From Mucilaginibacter sp. PAMB04168 (GTDB taxonomy: Bacteria > Bacteroidota > Bacteroidia > Sphingobacteriales > Sphingobacteriaceae), in NCBI RefSeq assembly GCF_039634365.2, contig NZ_CP155079.2, positions 2,666,001 to 2,730,000 on the forward strand: 64,000 bases of DNA, written 5' to 3'. Below the pieces are notes generated by a model. It did not search any database. It saw nothing but the letters and a program-made list of their open reading frames with translations, and was not told the origin of the DNA. Shown one piece after another: positions 9,535-37,338 of this stretch. Position numbers and translations under genes: made by a program. The first letter of the stretch is position 1, and each line of letters starts with the position of its first letter.

Positions 9535-10122
9535 ATGGAAATTGATGAGATAAATTTTGCAGATACAGAACTGTGGAACCTTTTTAGATCGGGCGACGAG
9601 TTAGCTTACACAAAGCTGATGAATAAATATACTCGCCTCATGTATAATTATGGGTACCGGTTTTGTCAGGACGCAGATTTAATCAAAGATTGTGTACAGG
9701 AAGTCTTCCTCGAATTGTGGAAGAAACGGACTCGCATAAATTCAACCCCATCAGTCAAATGGTACCTTTTCAAATCGTTGAGGCTAAGAATATTCCGTGA
9801 CCAGCCCGGTTGGCAAAGAAACGAGGAACTCGAAGATGGTTATAACTTTGTGGTTGAATTTAACATTGAGTCGCAGCTTATTGAGGCCTCAGGGCTGCAA
9901 GAGCAGTCTTCAAAAATAACAGCGGCTTTAAATAACCTGCCACCCCGGCAGCGAGAAATTTTATATCTACGATTTTACGAAGGTTTAGATTTCGAACAGA
10001 TATCAGAACTGATGGGTATCAGCCGTCAATCAGTTCATAATTTACTGCAAAAGGCTTATAAAAGCTTCCGTGCGGAATGGGCTATCATTCTCCTTACCGC
10101 AGCCGTTATTTTTTATAACTGA
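9535..10122 (+). CDS. FecI-like ECF RNA polymerase sigma factor
   Basis: The 195-residue protein has sigma-70 region 2 (about 22-65; YTKLMNKYTRLMYNYGYRFCQDADLIKDCVQEVFLELWKKR) and region 4 with a helix-turn-helix (about 128-178; NLPPRQREILYLRFYEGLDFEQISELMGISRQSVHNLLQKAYKSFR). The C-terminus is hydrophobic (AIILLTAAVIFYN) and may aid contact with the membrane or its anti-sigma factor. It is followed by fecR and an STN-type susC, the classic cell-surface signalling order: ligand in the receptor signals through STN to FecR, which releases sigma. It probably controls PUL1 and perhaps PUL2, which has no regulator. Confidence 0.93.
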   Translation: MEIDEINFADTELWNLFRSGDELAYTKLMNKYTRLMYNYGYRFCQDADLIKDCVQEVFLELWKKRTRINSTPSVKWYLFKSLRLRIFRDQPGWQRNEELEDGYNFVVEFNIESQLIEASGLQEQSSKITAALNNLPPRQREILYLRFYEGLDFEQISELMGISRQSVHNLLQKAYKSFRAEWAIILLTAAVIFYN

Positions 10123-10224
10123 TATTCAATGATTTATAGATAATCTTAAATTTTCCTCTATTCTGAAGGGTAATTAAGATTTCCTTATTGCTTATTGCAT
10201 AAAAACCAGTTCAAACCTCACTTC

Positions 10225-11289
10225 ATGACCCCATATGAGCATTACGAAGTCGAAGACTTCATGCAGGACGAATTTTTTATAGAATGGGTATTGCACCCTA
10301 GCGAAAACAGCAACGCTTTTTGGTCGGGTTGGCTAATGCACAACCCAGACCGGCAACCTGTTTTGGAAAGGGCGCGCGCAATTGTGAGCAGTATCACTGT
10401 AAAACCAGTAGCAAGAGAACTGGCAGATACTGAAGTGCGAAGTATTATTGACCATGTAAGGTTAAACGGTTTTAAAACAGAGCAACCCGTACCAACTATC
10501 AAAATATTATTTCGTACCGGGTGGTTTCAGGCCGCTGCGGTTATTTTAATATGTTTTACTGCTGCATTGCTGATCTATCGCCAGGTAGATGTAAAACAGG
10601 TGCTGTCACAAACCAACAACGAATTTATACAGGTAAGCAACCAATCTAATCAATCTAAGCTGGTCCGGATGAACGATGGTAGCCTGGCGGTATTGCATCC
10701 GGCTTCTGTATTACGTTATCCCTCGCGTTTTAATGGTAGCTCGAGAAATGTCTATCTCAGTGGCGAAGCATTTTTTGAGGTGCATAAAAATCCCCGGAAG
10801 CCGTTTTTAGTACATAGCCAGAACATGATTACCCGGGTGTTGGGCACAAGTTTTACAGTGCGGGCCTTCAAAGATGAAAACGCTTTCAAAGTAATAGTTA
10901 ATACCGGCAAAGTGTTGGTTTATGCAGACAAGCAGCAAGCTCATAAAATTAATGCAAAGTCGGTTACGTTGCTTCCAAATCAAGAAGTAACGTTTGACCA
11001 TAACCAAATAGTGCTCAAAAAAGATACATTACAGACCCCGTTGTTGTTATCTAAAGAGGTGGCAACGGATAAGTTTACTTTTAATAATGCCCCGCTTAGC
11101 CAAATCATAGCCCGATTGAACGAAGCATATGCTATTCACATTGTATATGATCATGAAAAATTGGGCAATCAAACGCTAACCGCATCGCTGTCTGATTTGC
11201 CGCTTGATGAAAAGGTAAAATTGATTTGTAAGGCGATCAATGCACAGTGCAGCTTCGATGGGGGACAAATAAAGATACTCAACCCATAA
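10225..11289 (+). CDS. FecR-type anti-sigma factor (transmembrane)
   Basis: I start at ATG 10225 (354 residues); a TTG at 10195 would add ten residues of no clear value. Order: a cytoplasmic N-terminal sigma-binding region, one transmembrane helix (about 106-124; AAAVILICFTAALLIY), the periplasmic FecR domain (about 140-245; LVRMNDGSLAVLHPASVLRYP, VYLSGEAFFEVHKNPRKPFLV, VLGTSFTVRAF) and a C-terminal DUF4974/STN-like domain (about 280-350; FTFNNAPLSQIIARLNEAYAIHIVYD). It holds the upstream ECF sigma factor inactive until the STN domain of a loaded SusC touches its periplasmic part. It lies about 100 nt after the sigma gene, probably in the same transcript. Confidence 0.92.
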   Translation: MTPYEHYEVEDFMQDEFFIEWVLHPSENSNAFWSGWLMHNPDRQPVLERARAIVSSITVKPVARELADTEVRSIIDHVRLNGFKTEQPVPTIKILFRTGWFQAAAVILICFTAALLIYRQVDVKQVLSQTNNEFIQVSNQSNQSKLVRMNDGSLAVLHPASVLRYPSRFNGSSRNVYLSGEAFFEVHKNPRKPFLVHSQNMITRVLGTSFTVRAFKDENAFKVIVNTGKVLVYADKQQAHKINAKSVTLLPNQEVTFDHNQIVLKKDTLQTPLLLSKEVATDKFTFNNAPLSQIIARLNEAYAIHIVYDHEKLGNQTLTASLSDLPLDEKVKLICKAINAQCSFDGGQIKILNP

Positions 11290-11347
11290 CTAACCAAGAT
11301 TAAACGCTAATCCAAATTATGAACAGAGCCATAACCTATTTCTAAAA

Positions 11348-11490
11348 AAAGCTGACCGGAAGTACGTCAATACCTCCGGTCAGTAATTAAGCCCTAAAAT
11401 GATTCACAGCCATTTAATGAGCAGCCGCAGAGCGACCGCATGGGCATTTTGTGTCGAGTTAATAACGAATTAATAACCCAAATCAAAACT
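11348..11490 (+). promoter_or_regulatory. Conserved leader RNA of STN-type susC, copy A
   Basis: This 143-nt leader is recognisably the same as the one before the PUL2 susC (29794-29929), roughly three quarters identical by eye. It holds a hairpin, CTGACCGGA (11352-11360) with TCCGGTCAG (11375-11383), extended by GTA/TAC around the loop CGTCAA. It also holds the 19-nt block ATGATTCACAGCCATTTAA (11399-11417), identical in both copies, and an upstream ORF. No T-tract follows the hairpin, so it is not a simple terminator. It probably regulates susC expression after transcription starts (inference). Confidence 0.65.
11399..11473 (+). CDS. Upstream ORF (24 codons) in the susC leader, copy A
   Basis: ATG 11399 to TAA 11473 encodes 24 residues beginning MIHSHL, with RR in the middle and CV near the end. 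The counterpart before the PUL2 susC starts with the same six residues, has the same spacing to its CV and ends 18 nt before susC; this one ends 17 nt before. The middle shifts frame by paired indels, so part of the conservation may be at RNA level. No function is known to me. Translation is unproven. Confidence 0.4.
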   Translation: MIHSHLMSSRRATAWAFCVELITN

Positions 11491-14400
11491 ATGAAATTTA
11501 AACCTGTACTTGTAAAAATTATGAAAATAACATTTTTACAGCTTACACTCCTTTTGTCTGTGCTGGCCAGTGCGATGGCGAGGGAGGTACGGGCTCAGGC
11601 GATACTTAAGCAAACAACTTCGCTGAATGAAACTAATGTGACGTTAAACGACGTTTTGAAAAAGCTGGAGAGAGAATATAAGATCAACTTTGTTTACAGC
11701 ACTCAACTTGTAGACGTAAGTAAGCGCGTAAACGTTTTTGCACAACAGCGTCCTTTAGAAGAAGTGCTTGAGCAAACATTAAAGCCCCTATCGCTCATAT
11801 TTGAAGCATCGGGCGACGTGATTGTAATCAGAAAGCTTAAATCAGAGGCTTCAGTTTCGGCACAATCAACCACAGCAAGCCGCCTTGTACAGTCGGTAAC
11901 CGGTAAGGTGGTCGATGAGAAAACAGGGCAGCCATTGTCGGGTGTAACAGTTAAAGTTAAGGGAAGTACCACAGGGGCCACTACCAATGTTAACGGCATC
12001 TACAACGTAACAGTAAACGATCCTTCAGCAACGCTTGTGTTTAGCTTTGTTGGTTATGAAGAACAGGAAAAGTTGGTAGGGCAGTCTGCTATTATTAATG
12101 TTGTACTGCGGGAAAAAGACAGCAAACTTAATGAGGTAGTTGTGATTGGCTATGCGTCCGAAAAAAAGAGTCAGGTAACGGGCGCTATCAGCAGCATTAA
12201 AGCTAAGGACCTGCAGGATCAGCAGTTCACCCGCTTTGACGATGCGCTTCGCGGCCAAGTAGCCGGTGTAAATGTTATTCAAAGCTCTGGAGCACCCGGC
12301 TCAACACCTACGGTAAAGATAAGGGGAACCACTTCTATAAATAGCAGCAACCCGCTATATGTTATTGATGGAATAGTGATAGACAATGGCGGGCTGGATA
12401 ACATCAATCCTGCCGACATTGAATCCATTGATGTACTTAAGGATGCATCCGCTGCAATATACGGATCGCGCGCCTCTGCAGGTGTAGTTATTGTAACCAC
12501 AAAAAAGGGCAAATTAGGTGTGCCGCAACTTACGTACAATGGTTATTATGGCGTTCAAAACTCCATCAAGCGGCTTAAGCTGGCAAATGCCACACAATAT
12601 GCCGATCTGCGCAACCAGGCATTAACCAATGACGGCAAAGCAGCGGCTTTTACTAATACTGCTGCTTTAGGCAATGGCACCGACTGGCAAGATGTTTTGT
12701 TCGGTAAAAATGTGCCGATACAGAATCATAATCTTAGCATAAGCGGCGCTAATGACAAAGCGAGCTATTATACATCTTTTGGTTATCTCGGCAACAGGGG
12801 AGTGGCCGCACCTTCCATCGCCAATTATCAGCGGTTAAATTTAGCCCTTAACACCAGTTATAAGGTGGCAAGTTGGCTAACTATCGGCGAAAACCTTAAT
12901 ATTGCTACTTCCAAAAGTCAGTTGGCTTTAAGTACAAACACCATTGGTGCTAACGGCCCTCTCAGTTCTGCTATATTATTAGATCCTATCACACCTGTTG
13001 TTGTTACCGACATCAATGCGCAGCCTAATGCAACCGTTTATAAAAATAATGCGCAATACATCGTTTACAATGATCAGGGCCAGCCTTACGGCATATCCCC
13101 TTATATACAGAATGAGGCTGCCAACATAGCTGCCTATGTGGCTGTTAACCAGGGTAATTACTCGTGGGCTACCAACCTGATCGGTAATACATATGTTGAA
13201 CTGAGACCGATTACGGGCCTTACACTTCGTTCCCAAATTAGTATAAAAGCAGCTTACTACGGCGGCAACTCATTTACGCCAATGTACTTTTTCTCGTCAA
13301 GCTCTAATAATATCACTGCAACAGTTCAAAATTTGAGTAGCAGTCGCAACGCTACACTAAACTGGGACAATACAGCAACCTATAACCGCAAGTTTGGCCA
13401 GCACAGTGCTACGTTGCTTGTAGGTACAAGCATGCAAAACCAGAACGGACATGGCTTAAGCGGTGCATTTACTGGAGAACCAGTTAATACCTTTGCCGAA
13501 GCCTCACCCAACTTTTCGCTTGCAGCAGCTAACAAGGTAGCTAACGGCAGCGATAACCAGCCTTATAAATTGGCTTCTTTTTTTGGCCGGGCCAGCTATA
13601 ATTACGCTGAAAAATACCTGTTAGACGTTACCTTACGCCGCGATGGATCTTCAAAGTTTGGACAAACTAATCAGTATGGTGTTTTTCCATCTGCCGGCTT
13701 AGGTTACATTATTTCAAAAGAACCGTTTTTTCCCAAAGACAATTTTGTCGATTTTCTTAAACTGCGTGCATCTTATGGAGTATTGGGTAATGAACAATCG
13801 TTGGGTCTGTTCCAGTATACATCAGTGATTGGTAGCGGTAGTAATTATCTATTTGGCAATAGTGTCGCTAATATCGGGTACCGCCCTAACGGGTTGTCAA
13901 ACCCAGATCTGAAATGGGAGCAGGTTAAAATTACAAATCTTGGGCTGGATGCTGTAATGTTCGGCTCATTGAACGTATCGGTAGAGGCTTACCGCAAGCT
14001 AACTGAAGGTATGCTTCAACAAATTGTTCTCCCTAATTATATTGGCACCTCTTCTAACCCTTATGCCAATATTGGTAACCTCGAAAATAAGGGAATTGAA
14101 TTGAGCCTGAGCTATGCTAACAAAATAGGCAAGTTCAGCTATAGTGCAGGCGGCAACATATCTTACAATAAGAATGTAGTAACCTATTTAGGCACAACGC
14201 AGTACTATACCAATGGTAATCTTCGTGGCACAAGTTATGAATTGGAACGCACCTCCGTGGGCCAGCCATTTCAGTCATATTACGGTTTTGTAGAGCAAGG
14301 CGTTTTTCATTCGCAGGCAGATGTAAATGCTTACAACAATGCGGCTGGTACGCTCATACAGCCTAATGCCAAGCCCGGCGATTTTAAATGGAGCGACATT

Positions 14401-14925
14401 AATGGCGACGGTAAAATAGATGCAAACGACCGTACTTACCTGGGTAATTCGATTGCGCCGTATACTTATGGTGTTAACCTTACCGCGGCTTACAATCACT
14501 TCGATTTCAGGCTTTTTGGGCAAGGCGTTTGGGGAAATAAGTTGTTCCAGGATACGCATCGCCCGGATTACCCTACCGCTAACTATCGTATAGAAGCGCT
14601 TAACGCATGGTCGGTATCAAATCCCGACAGCAATTATCCGCGCTTGTCTGATGTAGATCCTAATAACAACTTTAAGAATCCTTCTAACTTTTTTCTTCAA
14701 AGTGGCGCTTATTTCCGTCTAAAGACTTTGCAATTAGGTTATTCGTTGCCTCAGGATGTGCTTAATAAGATACATATGAAGCGCAGCCGGATTTTTGTAA
14801 GCAGCAATAATCTGTTTACCATAACCAAGTATACCGGTTATGACCCCGAGATTGCCGGTGGCATAGATTCCTCGATTTATCCTCAGGCGCGCACATTTAT
14901 GGTTGGTTTAGACATTACCCTTTAA
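11491..14925 (+). CDS. STN-type SusC TonB-dependent transducer/receptor (PUL1)
   Basis: I start at ATG 11491 (1144 residues, signal peptide from MKFKPVLVKIM to REVRAQ). The longer frame from 11440 would add 17 residues and overlap the upstream ORF. Domains: STN (about 50-115; LNDVLKKLEREYKINFVYS), carboxypeptidase-regulatory-like Ig domain (about 134-215; VTGKVVDEKTGQPLSGVTVKVKG), TonB box region LNEVVVIGYAS, plug with LYVIDGIVID and LKDASAAIYGSRASAGVV, then the barrel ending MVGLDITL. The STN domain marks it as a transducer that signals to FecR while importing oligosaccharides. It is the first structural gene of PUL1, after the sigma/anti-sigma pair and the conserved leader. Confidence 0.95.
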   Translation: MKFKPVLVKIMKITFLQLTLLLSVLASAMAREVRAQAILKQTTSLNETNVTLNDVLKKLEREYKINFVYSTQLVDVSKRVNVFAQQRPLEEVLEQTLKPLSLIFEASGDVIVIRKLKSEASVSAQSTTASRLVQSVTGKVVDEKTGQPLSGVTVKVKGSTTGATTNVNGIYNVTVNDPSATLVFSFVGYEEQEKLVGQSAIINVVLREKDSKLNEVVVIGYASEKKSQVTGAISSIKAKDLQDQQFTRFDDALRGQVAGVNVIQSSGAPGSTPTVKIRGTTSINSSNPLYVIDGIVIDNGGLDNINPADIESIDVLKDASAAIYGSRASAGVVIVTTKKGKLGVPQLTYNGYYGVQNSIKRLKLANATQYADLRNQALTNDGKAAAFTNTAALGNGTDWQDVLFGKNVPIQNHNLSISGANDKASYYTSFGYLGNRGVAAPSIANYQRLNLALNTSYKVASWLTIGENLNIATSKSQLALSTNTIGANGPLSSAILLDPITPVVVTDINAQPNATVYKNNAQYIVYNDQGQPYGISPYIQNEAANIAAYVAVNQGNYSWATNLIGNTYVELRPITGLTLRSQISIKAAYYGGNSFTPMYFFSSSSNNITATVQNLSSSRNATLNWDNTATYNRKFGQHSATLLVGTSMQNQNGHGLSGAFTGEPVNTFAEASPNFSLAAANKVANGSDNQPYKLASFFGRASYNYAEKYLLDVTLRRDGSSKFGQTNQYGVFPSAGLGYIISKEPFFPKDNFVDFLKLRASYGVLGNEQSLGLFQYTSVIGSGSNYLFGNSVANIGYRPNGLSNPDLKWEQVKITNLGLDAVMFGSLNVSVEAYRKLTEGMLQQIVLPNYIGTSSNPYANIGNLENKGIELSLSYANKIGKFSYSAGGNISYNKNVVTYLGTTQYYTNGNLRGTSYELERTSVGQPFQSYYGFVEQGVFHSQADVNAYNNAAGTLIQPNAKPGDFKWSDINGDGKIDANDRTYLGNSIAPYTYGVNLTAAYNHFDFRLFGQGVWGNKLFQDTHRPDYPTANYRIEALNAWSVSNPDSNYPRLSDVDPNNNFKNPSNFFLQSGAYFRLKTLQLGYSLPQDVLNKIHMKRSRIFVSSNNLFTITKYTGYDPEIAGGIDSSIYPQARTFMVGLDITL

Positions 14926-14936: not shown

Positions 14937-16388
14937 ATGAAAATTCGCAATTTAAAACTCATTATAGCACTGGTTAGCGTAACAGTGGCCATCACGTCTT
15001 GCAAAAAATACTTAGATACAAAGCCTGTAGGCCAATACCTTGCAGTTAATTATTATAAGAACCCATCCGAAGCATATGCTGGTTTAGTAGCCTGCTACAG
15101 TCCGCTCAACAGCGGTGAAGGCGGTATATTACTGGCGCTGAACGCAGGGTCAGACGATTGCTATGCCGGGGGAGGTAGTTCTACAGACAACCCGGTTGCA
15201 CAGGCTTTCAGTAATTTTAATCTGATGAATGCAGCTAATTCAATTGGTAGCACTTTTTGGAACCCCCTTTACGCAGGTATCTACAATTGCAACGTTAGCC
15301 TTTCGCAGCTGCCAACCGTCCCGGGGATGACCGCTGATTCGCTTAAGCGTTATACGGCCGAGTCTAAATTTCTGCGGGCTTATTATTACTTTGATCTGGT
15401 GAGGACGTTTAAAAACGTACCGCTCATTCTCAAGCCACTAACCTCATCCGAAGTATATGATCAGCCCCAGGCTGCTCCGGAAGCAGTTTACGCACAAATA
15501 GAAAGCGACCTCAACGCTGCTATCGCCGACTTGCCTGTCAAAATCCCGGCAACCCAAAATGGGCGTGTTACGCAAGGAGCTGCCAAGGCGCTTTTAGGCA
15601 AAGTTTTCCTTTTTGAAAAAAAGTGGACGCAGGCTGCAGACATGCTGGCGCAGGTTAACGGAACGCCCGGAGGCAGCAATAGTTACGGTTATAAATTGCA
15701 AGCAAACTTTGCCAGTCTTTTCGATCAAACCAATAAATTCAACAGCGAGTCTATCTTTGAAATACAACAGTCCAATACTATCTCGGGCTGGGCAAATTGG
15801 TATAGCAGGTATATTGGTCCGCGTTCATCCAGCCTTCCTGTAATTTTTAGTGGCGGCTATGGTTTCGAGGTGGTGACATTGAACCTTGTTAATGCAATAA
15901 AGAACGATCCGCGGTACCCAGCCACTGTTATCAACGCAGATAGTATTGCAAAGGCTACCAATACCAGTTACTCTCCCGGCTATCAAAACACCGGTTACTT
16001 TACCCGTAAATACGCGCCAATGGCAGCAACTTTTAACAGTTATGGAGAGGGGTATGATTACATTATTATCCGGTTGGCAGACACCTACCTGATGGAGGCG
16101 GAAGCACTGGTACAAGCCGGTACAAACACTACACGTGCCCAGGCACTGCTTGATGCCGTTCGCGCCCGTATAAAACTGGTGTCGATTCCGGCCACATTAA
16201 CTAACATCTATACCGAGCGAAGACTTGAACTGGCTCAGGAAGGGCACCGTTGGTATGATCTGGTTAGAACCGGACAAGCACCAACCGTGCTGGCCTTTAA
16301 GAACTTTACAGCTGGAAAAAATGAAATTCTTCCAATCCCACTCGGAGATCTAAATAACACCAAGCTAAAGCAAAATCCTGGGTACTAA
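14937..16388 (+). CDS. SusD/RagB-type glycan-binding lipoprotein (PUL1)
   Basis: The 483-residue protein has a lipobox with C22 (VAITSCKKYLD), an N-terminal SusD helical region (FLRAYYYFDLVRTFKNVPLIL) and a C-terminal core (IYTERRLELAQEGHRWYDLVRTGQA), ending in the family tail LKQNPGY. It pairs with the SusC encoded 11 nt upstream as the surface lid. Low similarity to the other two SusD proteins in this window suggests a different ligand. A 139-nt gap without a clear terminator separates it from the enzyme genes, and that gap holds a palindrome (16462-16479). Confidence 0.95.
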   Translation: MKIRNLKLIIALVSVTVAITSCKKYLDTKPVGQYLAVNYYKNPSEAYAGLVACYSPLNSGEGGILLALNAGSDDCYAGGGSSTDNPVAQAFSNFNLMNAANSIGSTFWNPLYAGIYNCNVSLSQLPTVPGMTADSLKRYTAESKFLRAYYYFDLVRTFKNVPLILKPLTSSEVYDQPQAAPEAVYAQIESDLNAAIADLPVKIPATQNGRVTQGAAKALLGKVFLFEKKWTQAADMLAQVNGTPGGSNSYGYKLQANFASLFDQTNKFNSESIFEIQQSNTISGWANWYSRYIGPRSSSLPVIFSGGYGFEVVTLNLVNAIKNDPRYPATVINADSIAKATNTSYSPGYQNTGYFTRKYAPMAATFNSYGEGYDYIIIRLADTYLMEAEALVQAGTNTTRAQALLDAVRARIKLVSIPATLTNIYTERRLELAQEGHRWYDLVRTGQAPTVLAFKNFTAGKNEILPIPLGDLNNTKLKQNPGY

Positions 16389-16461
16389 CTATTTTTAATA
16401 CTTTTTTTTCTAAATGACTGATTTATAGCATCAAAAAAATCACAGCATTTGATAAACAACA

Positions 16462-16479
16462 CACTTTGTATACAAGGTG
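16462..16479. promoter_or_regulatory. 18-bp palindromic site before the PUL1 enzyme genes
   Basis: CACTTTGTATACAAGGTG is self-complementary with one T/G mismatch pair; its core TTGTATACAA is perfect. It lies between susD and the first GH3 gene, 48 bp before the chosen start. The core resembles the TTGTACAA centre of the palindrome at 467-482, so one regulator could bind both, but chance is not excluded. Confidence 0.3.
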
Positions 16480-16527
16480 CACGCCACTGTATTGATTGGC
16501 CGTGTCCATTATTTTATTCCTCTTTTC

Positions 16528-18843
16528 ATGTCTGAACAAAAAAACAGCCTTTGCCAGTACTGGCTAATATTGGCTTTCATAAGTTCGCTATGCACAAATA
16601 TCGATGCAAGCGCGCAAACCACCTCTGCACAAAAGCCGGTGCCTCAACTAGGAAAAAATCCTATTGACGAAGTTATTGCGGCAATGACGCTGCAAGAAAA
16701 AGCGCTAATGGTAATTGGAGGTGGGCGGACAGGTACCGGCATTGACCTCGGCGATGGTTCAATGATAGGCCGTACCGAATCTCGTGTCCCTGGGGCAGCA
16801 GGATGCTCCAATGCTATTCCGCGGTTGGGCATACCGGCTATTGTGTTACCCGATGGCCCAGCCGGCGTACGTATTGATGTTAAGCGTAAAAACGATCCTA
16901 AATCTTATTACGCTACAGCCTTTCCATCGGCCACTACACTGGCATCTACCTGGGACATCGCTCTGGTGAAAAAGGTAGGGAAAGCATTCGGGAACGAAGT
17001 GCTGGAATATGGCGCTGATATTATTTTGGCGCCGGCTGTTAATATTCACCGCAACCCGCTTGGCGGGCGCAACTTTGAATACTATTCTGAAGATCCTGTG
17101 CTTGCCGGTAATATTTCCGCTGCCATTATTAACGGCATCCAGAGTAATGGCGTAGGCACTTCCATTAAGCATTTTGTAGCCAATAATCAGGAGACTAACC
17201 GTGCCATCATTAATGAGATGATTACTGAAAGGGCTCTGCGCGAAATTTATCTGAAGCCTTTTGAAATAGCTATAAAAAAATCTCAACCATGGACGGTGAT
17301 GTCGTCCTATAACTTGGTAAATGGCGTACATACGGCCGAACGTAGCGATTTAATTACCAGCATCTTGCGCGACGAATGGGGCTTTAAAGGCTATGTTATG
17401 ACTGACTGGGGAGGGATGGCCAAAGATATTATTGCCCAAATGAATGCCGGAAATGATGTGATCATGCCAGGCAATGCGGGCCAGGTAAGGACGATTGTCT
17501 CTGCAGTTGAGCATGACTCGCTGAGTGTGGAAGTGCTCAACCGTAATGTAAAACATGTGCTTAACATTATTGTGAACTCGCCCACGTTTAAAAAATACAG
17601 CTATTCTGGAGCGCCCGATCTAAAAGCTCATTCGTTAGTTTCGAGAGAGGCTGGAGCGGATGGGATTGTATTACTTAAAAATCATCAGGGTACACTGCCC
17701 TTAAACGTTTCGGCAAAGAACATCGCACTATTGGGAAATATGAGTTACTCAACAATTGCCGGTGGTACAGGTAGCGGCGACGTAAATAAAGCCCATACCA
17801 TTTCGCTGGCTCAAGGCCTGTTTAACGCTGGCTTTATACCGGAAGCCAACTTTGTTGCTACTTATAATACGTATGTGTCTGATTGGCGGAAGCGTTACCG
17901 TGAGCTGGACCTTACTGACGAACAGTTGGCCACGCTGGCCGAAAAATGTGATGTTGCATTGCTTACTATTGCCCGCAACAGCGGCGAAACCAAGGACCGC
18001 AGCCTGGACACTAACTATAAATTAAAACCGACAGAATTATCGCTAATTGATCGTACAGCCACGGCTTTCCACAAACTTGGAAAAAAACTGGTTATCGTAT
18101 TAAACATATGCGCGCCGATTGATACCAAAACCTGGCGGGATAAAGCAGATGCTATTTTATTAGCCTGGCAGCCCGGCCAGGAAGCCGGCGATGCCATGGC
18201 CGATGTGCTGACCGGTAAGGTAAACCCATCCGGCAAACTCGTGGATACCTTTGCAGAAAACTACGAAGACGTGCCCTCTGCCCGTGATTTCCCTGGAATG
18301 AATACTGAAAACACCGAGCAGATAAGTTACAAAGAAGGTATTTATGTGGGATATCGTTATTACGATACATTTAAAATTAAACCGGCATATGAATTTGGAT
18401 ATGGCATGTCCTATACCAACTTTAAAATCAGTCCGGTAAAGCTTTCGCAATCCACCGTCGAAAAAGTGTTTACTGCACAAGTTACCGTTACTAACACCGG
18501 TAAAGTTGCAGGTAAAGAAGTATTGCAGGTTTACATAGCTGCGCCGGTTCCATCAATTGCTAAGCCTGCCCAGGAACTTAAAGATTTTGCAAAGACCAGA
18601 TTGTTGCAACCCGGCGAGTCCCAAACGATAACATTTATCATTCCGGTTAGCAGTTTAGCGTCTTTTCATAATGATAAGAATGCATGGATTGCAGATGCTG
18701 GCTTGTACCAACTTAAAATAGGCACTTCATCAAGGCAAATAAGGCAGCAAAGTACATTTAAAATTCGCAGTCAAGTAATTACTGAGCGCGTCCACAGTGT
18801 AATGCATCCACCGGTAAAAGTGGCTGTTTACAATGCCCAATAA
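16528..18843 (+). CDS. Secreted GH3 beta-glycosidase (PUL1, first copy)
   Basis: I use ATG 16528 (771 residues): it places a proper signal peptide (MSEQKNSLCQYW to NIDASAQ) at the N-terminus, while the GTG at 16477 adds 17 residues. The GH3 barrel shows LPDGPAGVR, NIHRNPLGGRNFEYYSEDP, KHFVANNQETNR and the nucleophile motif YVMTDWGG (D293). The alpha/beta sandwich and a C-terminal fibronectin-III-like domain (VTNTGKVAGKEVLQVYI) follow. It is a beta-glucosidase-type exo-enzyme, probably periplasmic, removing terminal beta-linked sugars. GH3 also includes xylosidases and glucuronidase-active members, so substrate is open. It opens a tight run of enzyme genes (next gene after 12 nt). Confidence 0.93.
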   Translation: MSEQKNSLCQYWLILAFISSLCTNIDASAQTTSAQKPVPQLGKNPIDEVIAAMTLQEKALMVIGGGRTGTGIDLGDGSMIGRTESRVPGAAGCSNAIPRLGIPAIVLPDGPAGVRIDVKRKNDPKSYYATAFPSATTLASTWDIALVKKVGKAFGNEVLEYGADIILAPAVNIHRNPLGGRNFEYYSEDPVLAGNISAAIINGIQSNGVGTSIKHFVANNQETNRAIINEMITERALREIYLKPFEIAIKKSQPWTVMSSYNLVNGVHTAERSDLITSILRDEWGFKGYVMTDWGGMAKDIIAQMNAGNDVIMPGNAGQVRTIVSAVEHDSLSVEVLNRNVKHVLNIIVNSPTFKKYSYSGAPDLKAHSLVSREAGADGIVLLKNHQGTLPLNVSAKNIALLGNMSYSTIAGGTGSGDVNKAHTISLAQGLFNAGFIPEANFVATYNTYVSDWRKRYRELDLTDEQLATLAEKCDVALLTIARNSGETKDRSLDTNYKLKPTELSLIDRTATAFHKLGKKLVIVLNICAPIDTKTWRDKADAILLAWQPGQEAGDAMADVLTGKVNPSGKLVDTFAENYEDVPSARDFPGMNTENTEQISYKEGIYVGYRYYDTFKIKPAYEFGYGMSYTNFKISPVKLSQSTVEKVFTAQVTVTNTGKVAGKEVLQVYIAAPVPSIAKPAQELKDFAKTRLLQPGESQTITFIIPVSSLASFHNDKNAWIADAGLYQLKIGTSSRQIRQQSTFKIRSQVITERVHSVMHPPVKVAVYNAQ

Positions 18844-18855
18844 CACCGTACAAAA

Positions 18856-20628
18856 ATGCTAAAAAAACTAATTTACAGAACTGTAGGCGTTTTGTCGGCG
18901 ATTATAGTCACCGGACATACTAATGCACAAACCGCGGCACGCAGTTCCCAAAGCCTTGACGGCAAATGGCAGATACTTGTGGATTGGTATGGAAACGGAA
19001 ACGCAGATGATATAGCCCGTAACAAACAACCAGCTGATAAAAATGAGTTTGTTGAATTTTCTTTCGATAACAGCCAGACACTCGATGTACCCGGCGATTG
19101 GAATTCACAGCGAATTGATCTGAAATACTACGAAGGTACAATTTGGTATAAGCGTAACTTTGATCATCAACCGGAGCCGGGTAAACGCAGTTACCTGCAA
19201 TTTGCAGGCGTTAGCTATCGTTGCGAGGTTTATTTAAACGGCTCAAAACTAGGTGAGCATGAAGGTAGTTTTACCCCGTTTACGTTTGATATAACCAAGA
19301 GTATTAAACCTGGCAAAAATATCCTGGTACTTAAAGTCAACAATGAGCGGCGTGAAGATGCTATTCCGGCGCGCAAATTCGACTGGTGGAACTACGGGGG
19401 CATTACCCGTAGCATCACATTATCTAAGGTGCCCGATCAGCATATCCTCGACTATTTCATTCAACTTAAAAAAGGATCGCTTTATGAACTATGCGGCTGG
19501 GTTCAGTTGAATGCTAAACAGCAGCAACAAACAACCACCTTGGAAATCCCCGAGGCACACATTAAAAAAATACTGACTACAGACAGCAATGGTCGTGCGC
19601 AGATAAACTTCCCTGCCAAACTTAAGCTATGGTCGCCTGGGCAACCTAAACTTTACACCGTTAATATACATACGGCCAATGATACAGTGACTGACCAGAT
19701 AGGTTTTCGTTCCATAGAAGTTAAGGGAACACAAATTCTGCTTAATAAAAAACCTGTGTTTTTACGCGGCATCAGTTTTCATGAAGAAATACCACAGCGG
19801 GCGGGCAGGGCATATTCTGAAGCCGACTCACATATGATGCTTACCTGGGCAAAGGAATTAGGTTGTAATTTTATTCGACTGGCGCACTATCCACAAAGTG
19901 AGCAAACTGTAAAGCTGGCTGAACAAATGGGCCTGATGATGTGGGAGGAGATCCCTGTTTGGCAAGGTATTCAATTTACAAATCCCCAAATTTTAAGCAA
20001 GGCCAGCAATATGCTCGAGGAAATGATAAAGCGTGATAAAAACCGTTGCGGCATTGTCATTTGGAGCTTATCAAACGAAACGGCTCCAAGTCCCCAACGC
20101 AATAAAGTTCTGGCGCAAATGGCAAATGATGCCCGTTTGCTTGACCCCAGTCGCCTTATTTCATCTGCCTTTGACCATTTTAAATACGACGGCAACCAGA
20201 TACTGATCGACGATCCGCTGAGCGAAAGCCTGGATGTACTAGCCGCTAATAAGTATATGGGCTGGTACGCCAAATGGCCTGCCGGGCCGGGCAATGTAAT
20301 TTGGAAAAGCAATTTTAACAAGCCGCTCATCATTTCAGAGTTTGGTGCCGAGGCGCTTTATGGCAATCATGGTCCGGCAGACACTGCCAGCCTCTGGACG
20401 GAAGAATACCAGGAACAGTTGTATAAAGACAATATTAACATGTTTAACAAAACGCCTTTTTTAGCCGGCGTTTGCCCATGGATTCTGGCTGATTTCAGAA
20501 GCCCTTCTCGTATGCAGGCGCAATTTCAGCAAGGATGGAACCGTAAGGGATTGTTATCCGATAAAGGATTTAAAAAGAAGGCATGGTATGTAATGCACAA
20601 GTACTATCTGCAAAAACAAAAACAGTAA
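18856..20628 (+). CDS. Secreted GH2 glycosidase, beta-glucuronidase-like
   Basis: The 590-residue protein has a signal peptide (about 1-24, TGHTNAQ), a sugar-binding jelly-roll (about 35-195; GTIWYKRNF, VYLNGSKLGEHEGSFTPF), an immunoglobulin-like domain and a TIM barrel (about 290-590). The acid/base is E408 in VIWSLSNETAP and the nucleophile E495 in LIISEFGAEA. The lack of the large C-terminal domains of LacZ and the compact length fit beta-glucuronidase-type GH2. That agrees with the CE15-like esterase gene two genes downstream, which would act on glucuronate esters. A galactosidase or other activity cannot be excluded. Confidence 0.9.
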   Translation: MLKKLIYRTVGVLSAIIVTGHTNAQTAARSSQSLDGKWQILVDWYGNGNADDIARNKQPADKNEFVEFSFDNSQTLDVPGDWNSQRIDLKYYEGTIWYKRNFDHQPEPGKRSYLQFAGVSYRCEVYLNGSKLGEHEGSFTPFTFDITKSIKPGKNILVLKVNNERREDAIPARKFDWWNYGGITRSITLSKVPDQHILDYFIQLKKGSLYELCGWVQLNAKQQQQTTTLEIPEAHIKKILTTDSNGRAQINFPAKLKLWSPGQPKLYTVNIHTANDTVTDQIGFRSIEVKGTQILLNKKPVFLRGISFHEEIPQRAGRAYSEADSHMMLTWAKELGCNFIRLAHYPQSEQTVKLAEQMGLMMWEEIPVWQGIQFTNPQILSKASNMLEEMIKRDKNRCGIVIWSLSNETAPSPQRNKVLAQMANDARLLDPSRLISSAFDHFKYDGNQILIDDPLSESLDVLAANKYMGWYAKWPAGPGNVIWKSNFNKPLIISEFGAEALYGNHGPADTASLWTEEYQEQLYKDNINMFNKTPFLAGVCPWILADFRSPSRMQAQFQQGWNRKGLLSDKGFKKKAWYVMHKYYLQKQKQ

Positions 20629-20634
20629 GTCTTT

Positions 20635-22857
20635 ATGTACAAGATTAGAGAAACTATTATAGCCATTGTGTTTACAAGCATGCATTTTTCTGCTTTAGCA
20701 CAGCATAAAACTATTGACCAGCGTGTGGACTCTGTTATGCGATTGATGACACTAGACGAGAAGATAGGGCAACTAAACCAGTATTCCGGCCGGGAAGCGA
20801 CCGGGCCTGTAACTGCCCGAAATTCAGGTATTCTTGATGATATCAAAAACGGAAAAGTGGGGTCAATGCTAAATGTACAAGGTGTTAATAATGTAAGACA
20901 AATACAGGCAGTGGCCATGCAGTCGCGGTTAAAGATACCGCTGTTGTTTGGTATGGATGTCATTCACGGATATAAAACTATTTTTCCTGAACCTTTAGCA
21001 GAGTCAGCTTCGTGGGATTTGGCTGCCATTAGGCAGTCAAGCCACATTGCTGCGGTTGAAGCAGCGGCCGCCGGCCTTAACTGGACTTTTGCGCCTATGG
21101 TTGACATTGCACGTGATCCACGTTGGGGCCGCATTATGGAAGGCGCCGGCGAAGATACCTATTTGGGAAGCGAGATAGCCAAAGCCCGGGTGCTGGGTTT
21201 TCAAGGTGAAAAGCTGGGTGGTTTAGACGCGTTAATGGCTTGCGCCAAGCACTTTGCCGCTTATGGCGCGGTGTCATCTGGTCGGGATTATAACGATGTC
21301 GAGATGAGCGAACATCAGCTATGGGAAACTTTCCTGCCGCCATTTAAGGCATCAGTAGATGCAGGTGTAGCAACTTTTATGAGTTCTTTTAATACTCTAA
21401 ACGGCGTTCCCACAGCTGCCAGTAATTACCTGCAACGCGATATTTTGAAAGGCAAGTGGAACTATAAAGGCTTTGTAGTAAGTGATTGGGGGTCGATAGA
21501 CCAAATGATAAAATGGGGATACGTTAAGGATAAGAAGGACGGCGCTATGAAAGCCCTTATTTCCGGATGCGATATGGACATGATGAGCGACAGTTACATT
21601 AACAATCTGAAGCAACTGGTGGCGGAAAAGCAGGTAAGCATTAAGCTGATAAATGATGCTGTAAAACGGATATTATACAAAAAGTTTGAATTGGGATTGT
21701 TTGATGATCCTTATCGCTTTTGTAACGAGGAGCGTCAGCGAAAGGCCTGGAGTAATCCGGCACACAAGGAGGCTGCCTTGCGCACTGCCGAGAAATCTAT
21801 TGTGCTGTTAAAAAATTCCAGCAATATTTTGCCACTTCAAAAGCATGGACAAACCATTGCATTGTTAGGGCCTCTGGTTAAGTCGAAACGAGACCTGCAG
21901 GGTAACTGGATTGGTGCCGCAGAATTTGGCAGAATAACCAGTATGTATGACGGCCTCATCCAAAAGGGCGGCAACGATGTTCATTTTACGTATTCGGCCG
22001 GTTGTACCATTAAAAGTAATGATACTACAAGTATGGGCGAAGCGGTCCAAATGGCCAAGCGTGCCGATATGGTTGTGATGGCTTTGGGCGAAGCAGGTGA
22101 CATGAGCGGCGAATCGCGCTCGCGTGCCGATATCGGATTGCCTGGTCGGCAGATGGAATTGTTCAATGCGGTAAAAGCAACCGGCAAACCCGTAGTAGTA
22201 GTACTTATGGCGGGCCGCCCCATGATATTCAAGGAAATTGCTGACAAGGCCGATGCTATCTTATATGCCTGGTTTCTTGGGGATGAAGGTGGACCAGCTA
22301 TTGCCAATGTACTCTTTGGCGATTATAACCCCTCGGGGAAACTGCCGGTAACTTTTCCACGTTCGGTTGGACAGATTCCGCTTACTTATGACGGCTACAA
22401 AACCGGCCACCCGTTTACTACGTCGAGCACACAATACCAGACCGGCTATATCGATGTGCCTAATGCGCCACGCTATGCCTTCGGTTACGGGTTGAGCTAC
22501 ACTAACTTTAAATATGCTGATCTGAAGCTTGATAAGACCAGCATGGCAAGAACAGGCATTATTACCGCCAGTTTTACTCTTAGCAATACCGGCAAATATG
22601 CGGGCGAGGAGGTGGTGCAGCTTTATATAAATGACCCGGTCGCATCCGTAGTGCAGCCCATAAAAAAACTAAAAGATTTTCAGAATATACCTTTGAAACC
22701 AGGCGAGTCCAAAACGATCACCTTCAAAATTAATAATGAGAAGCTTTCTTTTTACAACCAGCAGTTACAATGGGTATCGGAGCCCGGAGATTTTACGCTG
22801 ATGATTGGCAGTGCATCTGATGATATCCGGCTGCAAAGTAACTTTAAGCTGCAATAG
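20635..22857 (+). CDS. Secreted GH3 beta-glucosidase, BglX-like
   Basis: The 740-residue protein has a signal peptide (about 1-22, SALAQ) and a GH3 barrel with IPLLFGMDVIHGYKTIFPEPL, FAPMVDIARDPRWGRIMEGAGEDTYL and KHFAAYGAVSSGRDYN. The nucleophile is D284 (GFVVSDWGS). The sandwich domain (VVVLMAGRPM) and C-terminal FnIII-like domain complete it. This is the E. coli BglX architecture, a periplasmic beta-glucosidase releasing glucose from the non-reducing ends of short oligosaccharides. It differs clearly from the GH3 at 16528, which suggests two different beta-linkages in the substrate. It lies 6 nt after the GH2 gene and 3 nt before the esterase gene. Confidence 0.94.
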   Translation: MYKIRETIIAIVFTSMHFSALAQHKTIDQRVDSVMRLMTLDEKIGQLNQYSGREATGPVTARNSGILDDIKNGKVGSMLNVQGVNNVRQIQAVAMQSRLKIPLLFGMDVIHGYKTIFPEPLAESASWDLAAIRQSSHIAAVEAAAAGLNWTFAPMVDIARDPRWGRIMEGAGEDTYLGSEIAKARVLGFQGEKLGGLDALMACAKHFAAYGAVSSGRDYNDVEMSEHQLWETFLPPFKASVDAGVATFMSSFNTLNGVPTAASNYLQRDILKGKWNYKGFVVSDWGSIDQMIKWGYVKDKKDGAMKALISGCDMDMMSDSYINNLKQLVAEKQVSIKLINDAVKRILYKKFELGLFDDPYRFCNEERQRKAWSNPAHKEAALRTAEKSIVLLKNSSNILPLQKHGQTIALLGPLVKSKRDLQGNWIGAAEFGRITSMYDGLIQKGGNDVHFTYSAGCTIKSNDTTSMGEAVQMAKRADMVVMALGEAGDMSGESRSRADIGLPGRQMELFNAVKATGKPVVVVLMAGRPMIFKEIADKADAILYAWFLGDEGGPAIANVLFGDYNPSGKLPVTFPRSVGQIPLTYDGYKTGHPFTTSSTQYQTGYIDVPNAPRYAFGYGLSYTNFKYADLKLDKTSMARTGIITASFTLSNTGKYAGEEVVQLYINDPVASVVQPIKKLKDFQNIPLKPGESKTITFKINNEKLSFYNQQLQWVSEPGDFTLMIGSASDDIRLQSNFKLQ

Positions 22858-22860
22858 CCA

Positions 22861-24048
22861 ATGAACAGATTTAAAGCATTGGTTGGGCTGGCATTAATCC
22901 TGATCACATCGGCTACTTTTGCGCAAAACTACGACGAAAAGCTGGTGCCAAAATACACCCTGCCGGATATGCTCACAACCCTTAACGGAAAAAAGGTTAA
23001 ACGTAAGGATGTGTGGGAACATACACGCAGGTTGGAATTGCTCAAGCTTTTCGAAGACAACGTATACGGTCAAATGCCGCAGGACTTTGATAGCATAAAG
23101 TACCAAATAACTCATTTGGATAATTCGGCTATGGGAGGCAAAGCCGTCCTGAAAGAAATAGATATCAAAGTTTTTCGCCAACAGCAAAGCGTCGGTATTC
23201 ACCTGGTGATGTTTACACCGTTACATGCCAGGCAGGCATCACCTTTATTCCTCTTGATCAATAATCGAGGTAAAAACAACATGGACCCGGCACGCATCAG
23301 CAAAACGGAGTTCTGGCCTGCCGAACAGGTAATTGACAGTGGCTACGCAACAGCAGTCTTTCATGTAAGCGATCTGGCACCTGACCGCAAGGATAGTTAC
23401 GCCAACGGTGTATTAAGACTTTATCCGGAGCAACTGAAAGCCCCGAACGGTATGAAAGCCATAGGAGCTTGGGCCTGGGGTGCAAGCCGGGTGATGGATT
23501 ATCTGCAAACCGACAAGTCCGTCGATGCTAAAAAAGTAGCCATCGTGGGTCATTCAAGGGGTGGTAAAGCCGCACTCTGGTTAATGGCCCAAGACCGCCG
23601 TTTTGCGATGTGTTTTGCTAGTTGTTCGGGCAATACTGGCGCTGCCTTGTCGCGCAGACGCTTTGGTGAGACTATCGAAAAAATCAATGCCACATTTCCG
23701 TATTGGTTTTGTGATAACTATAAAAAGTACAACAATAACGAAGACGATTTGCCAGTGGATCAGCACATGCTGATTGCCCTTAGCGCCCCGCGGCCGGTAT
23801 ATACAACTAATGCAACAAAAGATAAGTGGGCCGATCCAAGTGGAAGTTATATGGCTATAAAAGCAGCGGAACCAGTATATGAGCTATACCGCATAAAATC
23901 TGCTTTGTATGCTAGTTTGCCACCGCCCAACAGGCCAGCTTTGCAGCCACCTTTGGGCTATCATCTCCGCGAGGGTATACACGACCTTACTGCTTATGAC
24001 TGGGATAAATTTATTCGCTTCGCTCACAATTACTACCAAAAACAATGA
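22861..24048 (+). CDS. CE15-like glucuronoyl esterase (alpha/beta hydrolase)
   Basis: The 395-residue exported protein (signal ending TFAQ, about residue 22) has the alpha/beta-hydrolase nucleophile elbow GHSRGGK (S232), as in bacterial CE15 enzymes with GHSRLGK. It also carries the CE15-type strand SGNTGAALSRRRFGE, the WFCDNYKKY-x-LPVDQHMLIAL-APRPV block and a C-terminal REGIHDLTAYDW that would supply the catalytic histidine H374. CE15 enzymes cleave ester bonds between (4-O-methyl-)glucuronic acid and lignin alcohols or methyl groups. Its place between a GH3 and a GH2 gene (4-bp ATGA overlap with the latter) fits glucuronate-decorated plant glycan use. Assignment is by motif memory. Confidence 0.82.
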   Translation: MNRFKALVGLALILITSATFAQNYDEKLVPKYTLPDMLTTLNGKKVKRKDVWEHTRRLELLKLFEDNVYGQMPQDFDSIKYQITHLDNSAMGGKAVLKEIDIKVFRQQQSVGIHLVMFTPLHARQASPLFLLINNRGKNNMDPARISKTEFWPAEQVIDSGYATAVFHVSDLAPDRKDSYANGVLRLYPEQLKAPNGMKAIGAWAWGASRVMDYLQTDKSVDAKKVAIVGHSRGGKAALWLMAQDRRFAMCFASCSGNTGAALSRRRFGETIEKINATFPYWFCDNYKKYNNNEDDLPVDQHMLIALSAPRPVYTTNATKDKWADPSGSYMAIKAAEPVYELYRIKSALYASLPPPNRPALQPPLGYHLREGIHDLTAYDWDKFIRFAHNYYQKQ

Positions 24049-26402
24049 GACAATACTTCTGGAAACCAATACGAAATATAGGTTTAGTCTTTTGGGCAAC
24101 CCTGTTCTTTAACCAACAAGCTTCTGCACAGCAAATGGTCCGAAAGGACAGCTTGCTTAATTTTGGCTGGAAGTTTCGGGTCGGAGACAATCCTGATGCC
24201 AAACATATTGTGTTCGATGATAAAAAATGGCAGTCTGTAGATCTTCCGCACGATGGCAGTATAGCCGGTGCTTTTGACACCGTTAGCGGATCGCGGCAAA
24301 ACGGCTTCCGTCCACGGCATATCGGGTGGTATCGTAAAGTTTTCACTCGTCCGCCGGGCACAAATGGTAAGCTGGTAAGCTTGGAATTTGAAGGCGTGTA
24401 CCGCGATGCCGAAGTTTGGTTAAACGGTACTTACCTAGGCAGGCACCGTAACGGCTATACAGGTTTCAACTACGACATCACAAAACTCGTAGCGCCGGGC
24501 AAACAGGCAACCATAGCCGTCCGGTACGACAATACGTTTAAGCAGAGCTCACGATGGTATACAGGCGAAGGTATATACCGGAATGTATGGCTGCATATCC
24601 AATCGCCGGTTCATGTGGCCGAAAATGGCACCTATATAAGTACGCCCTTTATTGGCGATAGGAGGGCTGATATAGCCGTACAAACACAAGTGGTTAACTC
24701 AAATGATAGTACTGCTCTCACTACATTGAAAACGGTAATTATCGATCCCGATGGCAAAGAGATAAAGGAAATCGTCAGCAATGTTCCATTGCGCGCTCAC
24801 GAAACATACACCTACAAGCAAAACACTGTAATAACTAATCCCCAACGCTGGGACATCAGTTCGCCTAAACTTTACACAGCCAAAACTTATGTATGGCTTG
24901 GAAGCAAATTAACAGATACTTATCAGAGCCGTTTCGGTATAAGAACAGTTGATTTTAATTCACAACAAGGCTTTTTGCTTAACGGCCGTAAAGTATTTCT
25001 TAATGGTGTAAATATTCATCACGACCTTGGGCCGCTCGGCGCAGCTTCTTTCGAAAAAGGCTACCGCCGGCGTTTATCAGGGCTTAAGCAAATGGGCGTA
25101 AATGCCATACGTTTAGCACATAATCCTTATTCGAAAGCTGTACTTGACTTAGCGGATGAGTTGGGAATCCTGATTTTTAACGAAAGCTTTGATAAGTGGA
25201 GCAGCGAATATTATGGTCCGGGTGAAGACTTCCATCAGCTTTGGCAGCCTGATCTCGAGTGGTTCATCAAGCGAGATCGCAATCATCCATCCGTTTTTAT
25301 ATGGAGTGTGGGTAATGAGGTGGCTGTAAAGCAGGAATATAAAGACAGCGCATTTGTTATACAACTGGACAAGATGGTGGAAGTAGTTCGCCGGCTCGAT
25401 CCGTCGCGTAAAGTAACCAGCGGATTGTATCCGTCACGCGATGAAGATACCCCGGCACCGATGGCGTTTCATATGGACGTAATGAGCGATAATTATATGG
25501 CCCGCTTTTACAAACGCGATCGTTTAAAATTCCCGCAGTTAATTTTTCTGGAAAGCGAGATGACCACTGACAATGGTGGGGAAAACTTTTTCGCTTACGA
25601 TCACAGCTATACGTGCGGACAGTTTTATTGGGGTGGCACCGATTATATAGGCGAGTCGTTTGGATGGCCATCTAAAGGGTGGAATGGTATTATTGACTGG
25701 TGCGATTTCTGGAAGCCCATCTCTTTTTACATCAAAAGCCTGTACTCCCCAGAGCCAATGGTTAAGATTGCCGTTTTGGACGCAAAAGGCAGTGATGCCA
25801 GAGTTTGGAATGATGTGTTTATGAAAACGCTTAAGATGACCGATAGTTGGAACTGGGAAGCTGGTAAAAAGCTTACCCTCTATACATTCACCACAGGCGA
25901 TGAAGTGGAGCTGTTTCTGAATAACAAGTCGGTAGGAGTAAAACGGATGAGTGACTTTACTAAGAACAAAATAGTATGGGAACTAAATTATGAGCCGGGC
26001 AGCATCAGAGCAGTGGCACGGTTAAATGGGAAAGAAATTGCGGCAGACGAAATAAAAACGGCCGGTCAGGCGCGCCGCGTAGTGCTCAAAACCGATTCAA
26101 CTCTTATGCAGGCAAATGGGCTTGACCTTGCCTACATTACAGCAACTGTGGTTGACCAGAACGGAATTATTGTGCCGCAAGCAACAAATGATATTAAGTT
26201 TGATGTTAAAGGAGCTGCTACCATTGCAGGCGTAGCCAACGGCAATCGTATGAGCGATGAACTTTTTGTAGCTAATCATCGTCAGGTATTTGAGGGCAGG
26301 TGCCTGCTGGTTTTGCGCAGTAGCCGCCTATCCGGACCGGTACAGGTAAAGGCCACCTCTAAAGGCCTAAGTAGCGGCGTTATGAATATAACTGTAAAAT
26401 AA
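24045..26402 (+). CDS. Secreted GH2 beta-galactosidase-type glycosidase
   Basis: The 785-residue protein has a signal peptide (about 1-29, ASAQQ), a jelly-roll (VSLEFEGVYRDAEVWLNGTYLGRHRNGYTGF), an Ig-like domain, a TIM barrel (about 300-590) with acid/base E425 in VFIWSVGNEV and nucleophile E505 (or E503) in LIFLESEMTT. C-terminal DUF4982-like and Ig-like domains follow (about 600-785). This modular plan is common in PUL-encoded beta-galactosidases of Bacteroidota. It starts inside the esterase stop (ATGA), indicating translational coupling. It could also be a beta-mannosidase or other GH2. Confidence 0.92.
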   Translation: MRQYFWKPIRNIGLVFWATLFFNQQASAQQMVRKDSLLNFGWKFRVGDNPDAKHIVFDDKKWQSVDLPHDGSIAGAFDTVSGSRQNGFRPRHIGWYRKVFTRPPGTNGKLVSLEFEGVYRDAEVWLNGTYLGRHRNGYTGFNYDITKLVAPGKQATIAVRYDNTFKQSSRWYTGEGIYRNVWLHIQSPVHVAENGTYISTPFIGDRRADIAVQTQVVNSNDSTALTTLKTVIIDPDGKEIKEIVSNVPLRAHETYTYKQNTVITNPQRWDISSPKLYTAKTYVWLGSKLTDTYQSRFGIRTVDFNSQQGFLLNGRKVFLNGVNIHHDLGPLGAASFEKGYRRRLSGLKQMGVNAIRLAHNPYSKAVLDLADELGILIFNESFDKWSSEYYGPGEDFHQLWQPDLEWFIKRDRNHPSVFIWSVGNEVAVKQEYKDSAFVIQLDKMVEVVRRLDPSRKVTSGLYPSRDEDTPAPMAFHMDVMSDNYMARFYKRDRLKFPQLIFLESEMTTDNGGENFFAYDHSYTCGQFYWGGTDYIGESFGWPSKGWNGIIDWCDFWKPISFYIKSLYSPEPMVKIAVLDAKGSDARVWNDVFMKTLKMTDSWNWEAGKKLTLYTFTTGDEVELFLNNKSVGVKRMSDFTKNKIVWELNYEPGSIRAVARLNGKEIAADEIKTAGQARRVVLKTDSTLMQANGLDLAYITATVVDQNGIIVPQATNDIKFDVKGAATIAGVANGNRMSDELFVANHRQVFEGRCLLVLRSSRLSGPVQVKATSKGLSSGVMNITVK

Positions 26403-26411
26403 ATTCAAATT

Positions 26412-29392: not shown

Positions 29393-29793
29393 TACCAAGT
29401 TGATTTTCATAAAGAGCAAACTTTTCGACCTGTAAACCAATGGTTTAAATTAAAATTTTAAAAGAAATGATTTTTGGAGGGTATTATTAGGTACCTCGAT
29501 GCTTATCTGTATTAAACCAATATAAACATCAAATGATACAGCCGCGAAGTAGTTAGATTCGAGGTTTTCTGATGTAATAAATTTTGTGGCCCCGGTAAAC
29601 CCTTTGCGCATACCATGTGAAGCAAATAGCTTTAGATATTTTTTTAAAAATGCTTTTATGTAGCACGTAGGGAACGGGTAAGATAAAGTCGGGAATAAAG
29701 TTCATTTCCGGAGGATAAAGAATAGATAAATATTCCAGATAAAACCAATTAAACCTAATAGAATATGAATAAAACCTATACCTGACCTTCGTA
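29393..29793. other. Intergenic region between PUL1 and PUL2
   Basis: About 400 bases were searched without finding a gene, tRNA or terminator. A 15-bp near-palindrome TAAACCAATGGTTTA (29436-29450) lies 43 bp after the SGNH gene in AT-rich DNA. ACCTAT (29774-29779) also occurs before leader copy A (at 11334), a weak hint of a shared promoter element. Confidence 0.4.
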
Positions 29794-29929
29794 AAAGCTG
29801 ACCGTAGGTACGTCAATACTCACGCTCACTTAATTCCGCCCAAAGATGATTCACAGCCATTTAAGAGCAGCTGCCAGGCGGCCGCATGGGCTTTCTTGTG
29901 TCAAAAAATAACGATTAACAACCAAAACC
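29794..29929 (+). promoter_or_regulatory. Conserved leader RNA of STN-type susC, copy B
   Basis: This 136-nt leader matches copy A (11348-11490): AAAGCTGACCG at the start, the loop GTACGTCAATAC, the identical 19-nt block (29846-29864), a GCATGGGC segment, TTGTGTC, and the susC start region CCTGTACTTGTAAA. The hairpin is kept with mismatches, and one pair has changed on both sides (T29805-A29822 here, G11359-C11376 in copy A). That favours selection on RNA structure. Confidence 0.65.
29846..29911 (+). CDS. Upstream ORF (21 codons) in the susC leader, copy B
   Basis: ATG 29846 to TAA 29911 encodes 21 residues beginning MIHSHL, with an Ala/Arg-rich middle (RAAARRPHG) and CVKK at the end. The distance from the MIHSHL block to the Cys-Val codons equals that in copy A, despite compensating indels between them. 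The stop codon lies 18 nt before the susC start. Leader-peptide control of susC is possible but untested. Confidence 0.4.
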   Translation: MIHSHLRAAARRPHGLSCVKK

Positions 29930-35189: not shown

Positions 35190-35211
35190 ACTGTGTAGTC
35201 CCGTTAGTGCA

Positions 35212-35238: not shown

Positions 35239-35272
35239 GCATTATTTAAAATGAAATAGTACAAACACCAGT

Positions 35273-36409: not shown

Positions 36410-36454
36410 AAGGCTGCATATCACGAAAAGTGGTATGTCTGCTTGATACTTACT

Positions 36455-37330: not shown

Positions 37331-37338
37331 GCAACGAA

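Follow-up and report, generated by a model that had tools for sequence, protein, structure and literature searches.

A predicted cis-antisense RNA opposite the start of FecR-associated STN-type susC genes in Mucilaginibacter and other Bacteroidota

Bacteroides was already known to have antisense RNAs that oppose susC genes. These RNAs, of the DonS type, are described as 78–128 nt in length (PMC7366714, PMC10994844). DonS and its relatives are proposed to be repressors of their PUL (Cao et al. 2016, as cited in PMC7366714, PMC10994844 and PMC9723704), and several antisense RNA/susC pairs are reported to be anti-correlated (PMC10994844). The FopS and GibS sRNAs of B. thetaiotaomicron offer a second comparison since they act at translation starts, which for FopS are susC starts, and have a 3′ terminator hairpin; however, FopS is multicopy and reaches other loci by seed pairing, whereas each copy of the element described here opposes the gene that it overlaps (PMC11697453).

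The locus considered here belongs to a window of 64,000 nt from the genome of Mucilaginibacter sp. PAMB04168 (Sphingobacteriaceae). Like the DonS-type RNAs, the predicted RNA would be encoded opposite the upstream region of a susC homologue, as indicated by a predicted terminator and a promoter-like box. The comparison is one of position and of predicted length (~130 nt, against the 78–128 nt reported), with both ends predicted from the box and the U-tract. It differs in its hosts, which are Sphingobacteriaceae rather than Bacteroides, comparable junctions being present in further families of Bacteroidota, and in the P2 domain and small upstream ORF that are added in the leader type of the window. 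The original prediction knew of no described family that fits this element. There is indeed no Rfam match at the curated threshold in the window, and seven homologous loci gave none up to E 0.5, but DonS-type cis-antisense RNAs do fit by position and predicted length (PMC7366714). At fecR-susC junctions of Sphingobacteriaceae and other families, the anatomy can be recognised from sequence alone: a promoter-like box on the start codon and, ahead of the gene, a terminator hairpin. If this reading is true, many nutrient receptors under sigma/anti-sigma control, a large class, come with an antisense brake of their own that computation can detect. The features of the two leader copies in the window, designated A and B, are as follows.

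9535–10122, plus strand: ECF sigma factor (Pfam Sigma70_r2, Sigma70_r4_2)
10195–11289, plus strand: FecR anti-sigma factor (Pfam FecR, FecR_C)
11319–11345, plus strand: small upstream ORF of copy A, MNRAITYF and stop; 19 of 21 leaders of the same type have such an ORF
11344–11383, minus strand: HP1 of copy A, predicted antisense intrinsic terminator (hairpin 11383–11352, U-tract 11350–11344; match to model R2 on the minus strand, 35.4 bits)
11345–11477, minus strand: predicted cis-antisense RNA of copy A, ~130 nt (start ~11477, end in the U-tract ~11345; from the -7 box, HP1 and the fold z-score)
11391–11450, plus strand: P2 domain of copy A (stem GCCC 11391–11394 / GGGC 11442–11445, two possible small hairpins inside, then ATTTT)
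11484–11491, minus strand: putative antisense -7 promoter box of copy A, TAGTTTTG, overlapping the susC start codon (consensus TAnnTTTG)
11491–14925, plus strand: STN-type susC of PUL1 (Pfam STN, CarbopepD_reg_2, Plug)
29765–29785, plus strand: small upstream ORF of copy B, MNKTYT and stop
29800–29827, minus strand: HP1 of copy B, decayed, with unpaired positions and a four-T tail
29838–29899, plus strand: P2 domain of copy B (GCCC 29838–29841 / GGGC 29888–29891, TTTCTT)
29923–29930, minus strand: degenerate -7 box of copy B, TGGTTTTG, with one mismatch
29930–33331, plus strand: STN-type susC of PUL2 (Pfam)

The pairing of leaders before the two STN-type susC genes, from which the original prediction started, is real in both coordinates and similarity. 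Copies A (11347–11490) and B (29793–29929) align end to end with 80% identity over 139 nt (blastn against the whole genome, E 3e-25), and the conserved unit extends to the small upstream ORF and to the susC start itself. No third close copy was found in the 5.4 Mb genome, where the next best blastn match has an E-value of 0.11. The sigma and FecR genes lie directly 5′ of the copy A leader, whereas a GDSL-lipase gene precedes copy B. The STN domain (PF07660) is present in both susC proteins behind the leaders and absent from the third susC (2812), as had been proposed; just 14 nt separate the start of the latter from the preceding ORF. An alternative start of the PUL1 susC at 11521 was rejected in favour of 11491 because the homologous leader L074 has ATA at the position of 11521 and the upstream codons vary without breaking the frame. 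By Pfam, the genes that follow encode SusD, two GH3, two GH2, a glucuronoyl-esterase-like protein and GH36 in PUL1 (14937–28574), and SusD, an alginate-lyase-family protein, GH16, GH88 and a rhamnosidase-like protein in PUL2 (33375–40825).

A search of 250 genomes of the family, followed by a search with covariance model R1, yielded 30 loci. The hosts found by a protein-based search are Mucilaginibacter, Pedobacter, Desertivirga and one Chitinophaga (Chitinophaga oryziterrae). A susC-like ORF lies 3′ of 27 of the 30 loci, copy A included, and 25 of these 27 also have a FecR-like ORF upstream; in the other two (L074, L075) the upstream ORF was missed by the script. The remaining exceptions are a broken susC (L081), a locus at a contig edge (L090) and one that is unrelated (L092). 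In L081, a leader of this type stands before a broken susC start and no long ORF was found after it. Nearly all of the homologous leaders stand after fecR and before an STN-type susC; the original prediction had expected further covariance-model matches upstream of such susC genes.

In the sense direction, the leaders share one order: the fecR stop, a small ORF of ~3–12 codons, an A-run, the hairpin HP1, a P2 stem of the form AGCCCC...GGGGCT around two small hairpins, a T-run, an A/T-rich stretch and the susC start. The layout in copy A is the ORF at 11319–11345, the A-run at 11344–11350, HP1 at 11352–11383, P2 at 11391–11450 and susC at 11491. The HP1 loop, CGTCAA closed by GTA/TAC, is present in both copies just as described, and G11359–C11376 in copy A is replaced by T29805–A29822 in copy B in a genuine two-sided change. 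Two copies alone prove little, however, and the proof of covariation comes from the wider family and from ~25 homologous leaders that are distinct from one another. In an alignment of the antisense hairpin, each of the ten pairs has two-sided changes, and 98.9% of cells are paired compared with under 48% in slid controls, a figure that leans upward since the aligned sequences were picked as hairpins. Covariation over many copies is far above shuffles, and the proposal that a conserved RNA element with covariation accompanies STN-susC genes under sigma/anti-sigma control is supported. A MAFFT alignment of P2 lined up its stems poorly and was set aside for the pair counts.

The strand on which HP1 is formed may be read from its mismatches. 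In copy A, the sense hairpin has an A·C mismatch at 11361–11374, which is a G·U pair on the antisense strand. Across 25 distinct leaders, sense A·C outnumbers sense G·U by 19 to 4, with two hairpins misplaced and with a finder that gives A·C and G·U equal scores; including the wider survey, 65 hairpins contain 45 sense A·C (antisense G·U) and 13 sense G·U. Since a sense A·C is a G·U on the other strand, selection for pairing would act on the antisense RNA, and a sense-strand hairpin model for HP1 was rejected on this polarity. Folding of each strand agrees, with the antisense hairpin more stable in 24 of 29 leaders and the sense hairpin in five. The A-run before HP1 in the sense direction is a U-tract after HP1 in the antisense direction. 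By its sequence, HP1 is an intrinsic terminator on the antisense strand, with a G+C-rich hairpin followed directly by a U-tract.

Both the loop and the stem sequence of HP1 are conserved. The sense loops (loci L115–L190; 11365–11370 in the window) are unusually uniform and often end in AA, as in CGGCAA, CGCCAA, CTGCAA and CGTCAA. Such loops read UUGNNG in the antisense RNA, a preference that the ordinary terminators of this genome do not share when inspected by eye. A shared factor that binds the HP1 loop is possible. By eye, the HP1 loop pairs with the last hairpin of P2 in L065 and L072, an idea that was discarded because this pairing is not conserved in the others.

The wider occurrence of HP1 was surveyed at 61 fecR-susC junctions of 60–300 nt with a long downstream ORF, collected from FecR_C matches in the phylum and family samples. 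By eye, the downstream ORFs are mostly STN-type susC genes. One fixed rule found antisense terminators at 32 junctions and sense terminators at none, compared with two and none after shuffling; neither this set nor the hairpin alignment consists of phylogenetically independent members. Among 90 ordinary same-strand gaps drawn from 400 kb of the genome in 20 stretches, the counts were two antisense and 19 sense. The strict rule found no terminator at 29 of the 61 junctions, many of which have a hairpin with a weaker T-run and some of which have no hairpin. In the genome of the window, the top four matches of model R2 are all antisense at fecR-susC junctions (32.8–44 bits, the next match reaching 20.5), although three of them were in the training set and only the match at 909625 is independent. 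In the family sample, 27 of 30 R2 loci have the order fecR, hairpin, susC in the correct orientation. Outside the family, R2 matches occur at fecR-susC junctions of several other families and many others resemble ordinary terminators; the model is not specific at the scale of the phylum. Judged by sequence comparison, the antisense terminator layout recurs across several Bacteroidota families. HP1 lies mostly 50–111 nt from susC, while its distance from fecR can be anything between 1 and 146 nt, which ties HP1 to susC and not to fecR. A search of the junctions for a shared dyad motif of an ECF sigma promoter gave nothing above shuffles.

A candidate start for an RNA ending at HP1 was found at the susC start codon. 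The -7 consensus of Bacteroidota, TAnnTTTG (PMC7366714), occurs in antisense orientation at the susC start in 18 of the 24 leaders of the R1 set and at 25 of the 61 surveyed junctions, compared with 6 of 192 ordinary genes. Permuted -7 motifs reach 0–7% with no comparable rise. A -33 TTTG element was looked for upstream of the antisense box and not found; none was found in Flavobacterium johnsoniae either (PMC7366714). From the box at 11491–11484 and the position of the U-tract, the RNA of copy A is predicted to start at ~11477 and end at ~11345. This stretch has a fold z-score of -4.8 on the minus strand versus -2.7 on the plus strand, each against shuffles. Predicted lengths of the antisense RNA in leaders of this type are 123–136 nt, with the ends as set for folding. 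In several receptors (e.g. L115, L179), the box crosses the start codon as CAA|ATGTA. Since this box spans the start codon, codon 2 is fixed as Tyr, and the MY with which these proteins begin may be a side effect of an antisense promoter at this site.

From these observations, 11348–11490 is probably, in the main, the template of a short cis-antisense RNA that would oppose and damp susC. A housekeeping -7 box over the susC start codon would start the RNA ~14 nt before susC; the RNA would cross the leader and end at HP1 and its U-tract, just after fecR and the small ORF in the sense order. As long as the cell has no need of the receptor, susC would be held low by antisense transcription or by its RNA product, and a FecR signal that releases the FecI-like sigma factor would let sense transcription win. 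By analogy with DonS, the most likely function is to repress susC, through the antisense RNA or through the act of transcribing it. Sequence comparison shows the antisense terminator signature, its strand polarity and covariation, its place between fecR and STN-susC and the promoter-like box; we infer that the RNA is transcribed and that it represses, be it by RNA pairing or by promoter interference. At several loci the hairpin is very close to fecR, so that the antisense unit would contain any intergenic sense promoter, which makes it plausible that the two transcriptions interfere with each other.

The original prediction had placed the hairpin in a leader RNA on the sense strand of susC. 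On this point it is not supported, since the mismatch polarity, the position of the A/T-run, the terminator counts by strand and the -7 box all point to the antisense strand. A broader form of the idea takes the whole region as a cis-regulatory RNA or attenuator in the susC 5′ UTR, where the small ORF, HP1, and P2 with its U-run end transcription unless a signal or a ribosome prevents it. In attenuators of the trp type, a leader peptide encoded by a small ORF precedes hairpins and a terminator-like stem with a U-run. The leader type of the window resembles them in this layout, but has no run of a single codon in the small ORF and no clear antiterminator pairing, and the signature of its first hairpin is on the other strand.

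Some of the evidence does favour such a sense-strand leader. The 19 of 21 leaders with a small ORF compare with 9.3 ± 2.2 in shuffles, and in nine leaders the ORF ends in Thr compared with 0.9 in shuffles, though the leaders are related and the shuffle test overstates their independence. In the wider family, the ORF is present in 12 of 28 leaders versus 8.8 expected, which is not significant. A T-run follows P2 in most leaders, and the stem has compensatory variants such as AGCCCC/GGGGCT and AGTCCC/GGGACT (L087). P2 with its U-run resembles a sense terminator in most relatives, weakly so in copy A, and could be a sense attenuator. Copy B also keeps the ORF and P2 despite the absent fecR. Against this stand the antisense polarity and U-tract of HP1 and the sense terminators found at none of the 61 junctions, a count made with a rule that detects single hairpins and not a branched P2. 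In copy A, P2 has a stem of 4 bp, a weak T-run and a sense z-score of 0.0; P2 folding is neutral with no strand preference, and the domain is missing from most fecR-susC junctions. A sense-strand leader of this kind is therefore unlikely, if still worth weighing. Equally tentative is a two-strand switch, where the same 130 bp serve both an antisense RNA and, through the small ORF and P2, a sense attenuator, and where sigma activity, transcription of the antisense strand and translation of the ORF jointly set the readout of the receptor operon, with HP1 and its preferred loop widespread at FecR-controlled Bacteroidota receptors and possibly bound by a factor.

HP1 might instead merely insulate fecR from stray antisense transcription, with an antisense RNA that has no function. 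Its position less than 20 nt from the fecR stop in several loci is what such a terminator would show, but the spacing varies on the fecR side and is narrow on the susC side, the loop and stem sequences and the promoter-like box at the susC start are conserved, and ordinary same-strand gaps practically lack such terminators on the antisense strand, which makes this reading improbable. A DNA operator for the sigma factor or another regulator, suggested by an inverted repeat within a regulatory region, is very improbable because an operator would conserve its bases and be strand-neutral, while the stem bases change freely with compensation, the wobble falls mostly on one strand and the T-run is strand-specific.

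Under the antisense RNA reading, every predicted part is present in copy A, and copy B provides some contrast. Copy B has no adjacent fecR, its hairpin is weak with extra unpaired positions (-8.2 sense, -12.2 antisense), and model R2 gives no match to its HP1 up to E 10; the small ORF and P2 are retained. Copy B is best read as a copied leader of the same origin that appears to be losing its antisense part. The leader and susC start of L101 (Chitinophaga oryziterrae) are nearly identical to those of L068 and L109 (Mucilaginibacter), which suggests a transfer of the whole unit.
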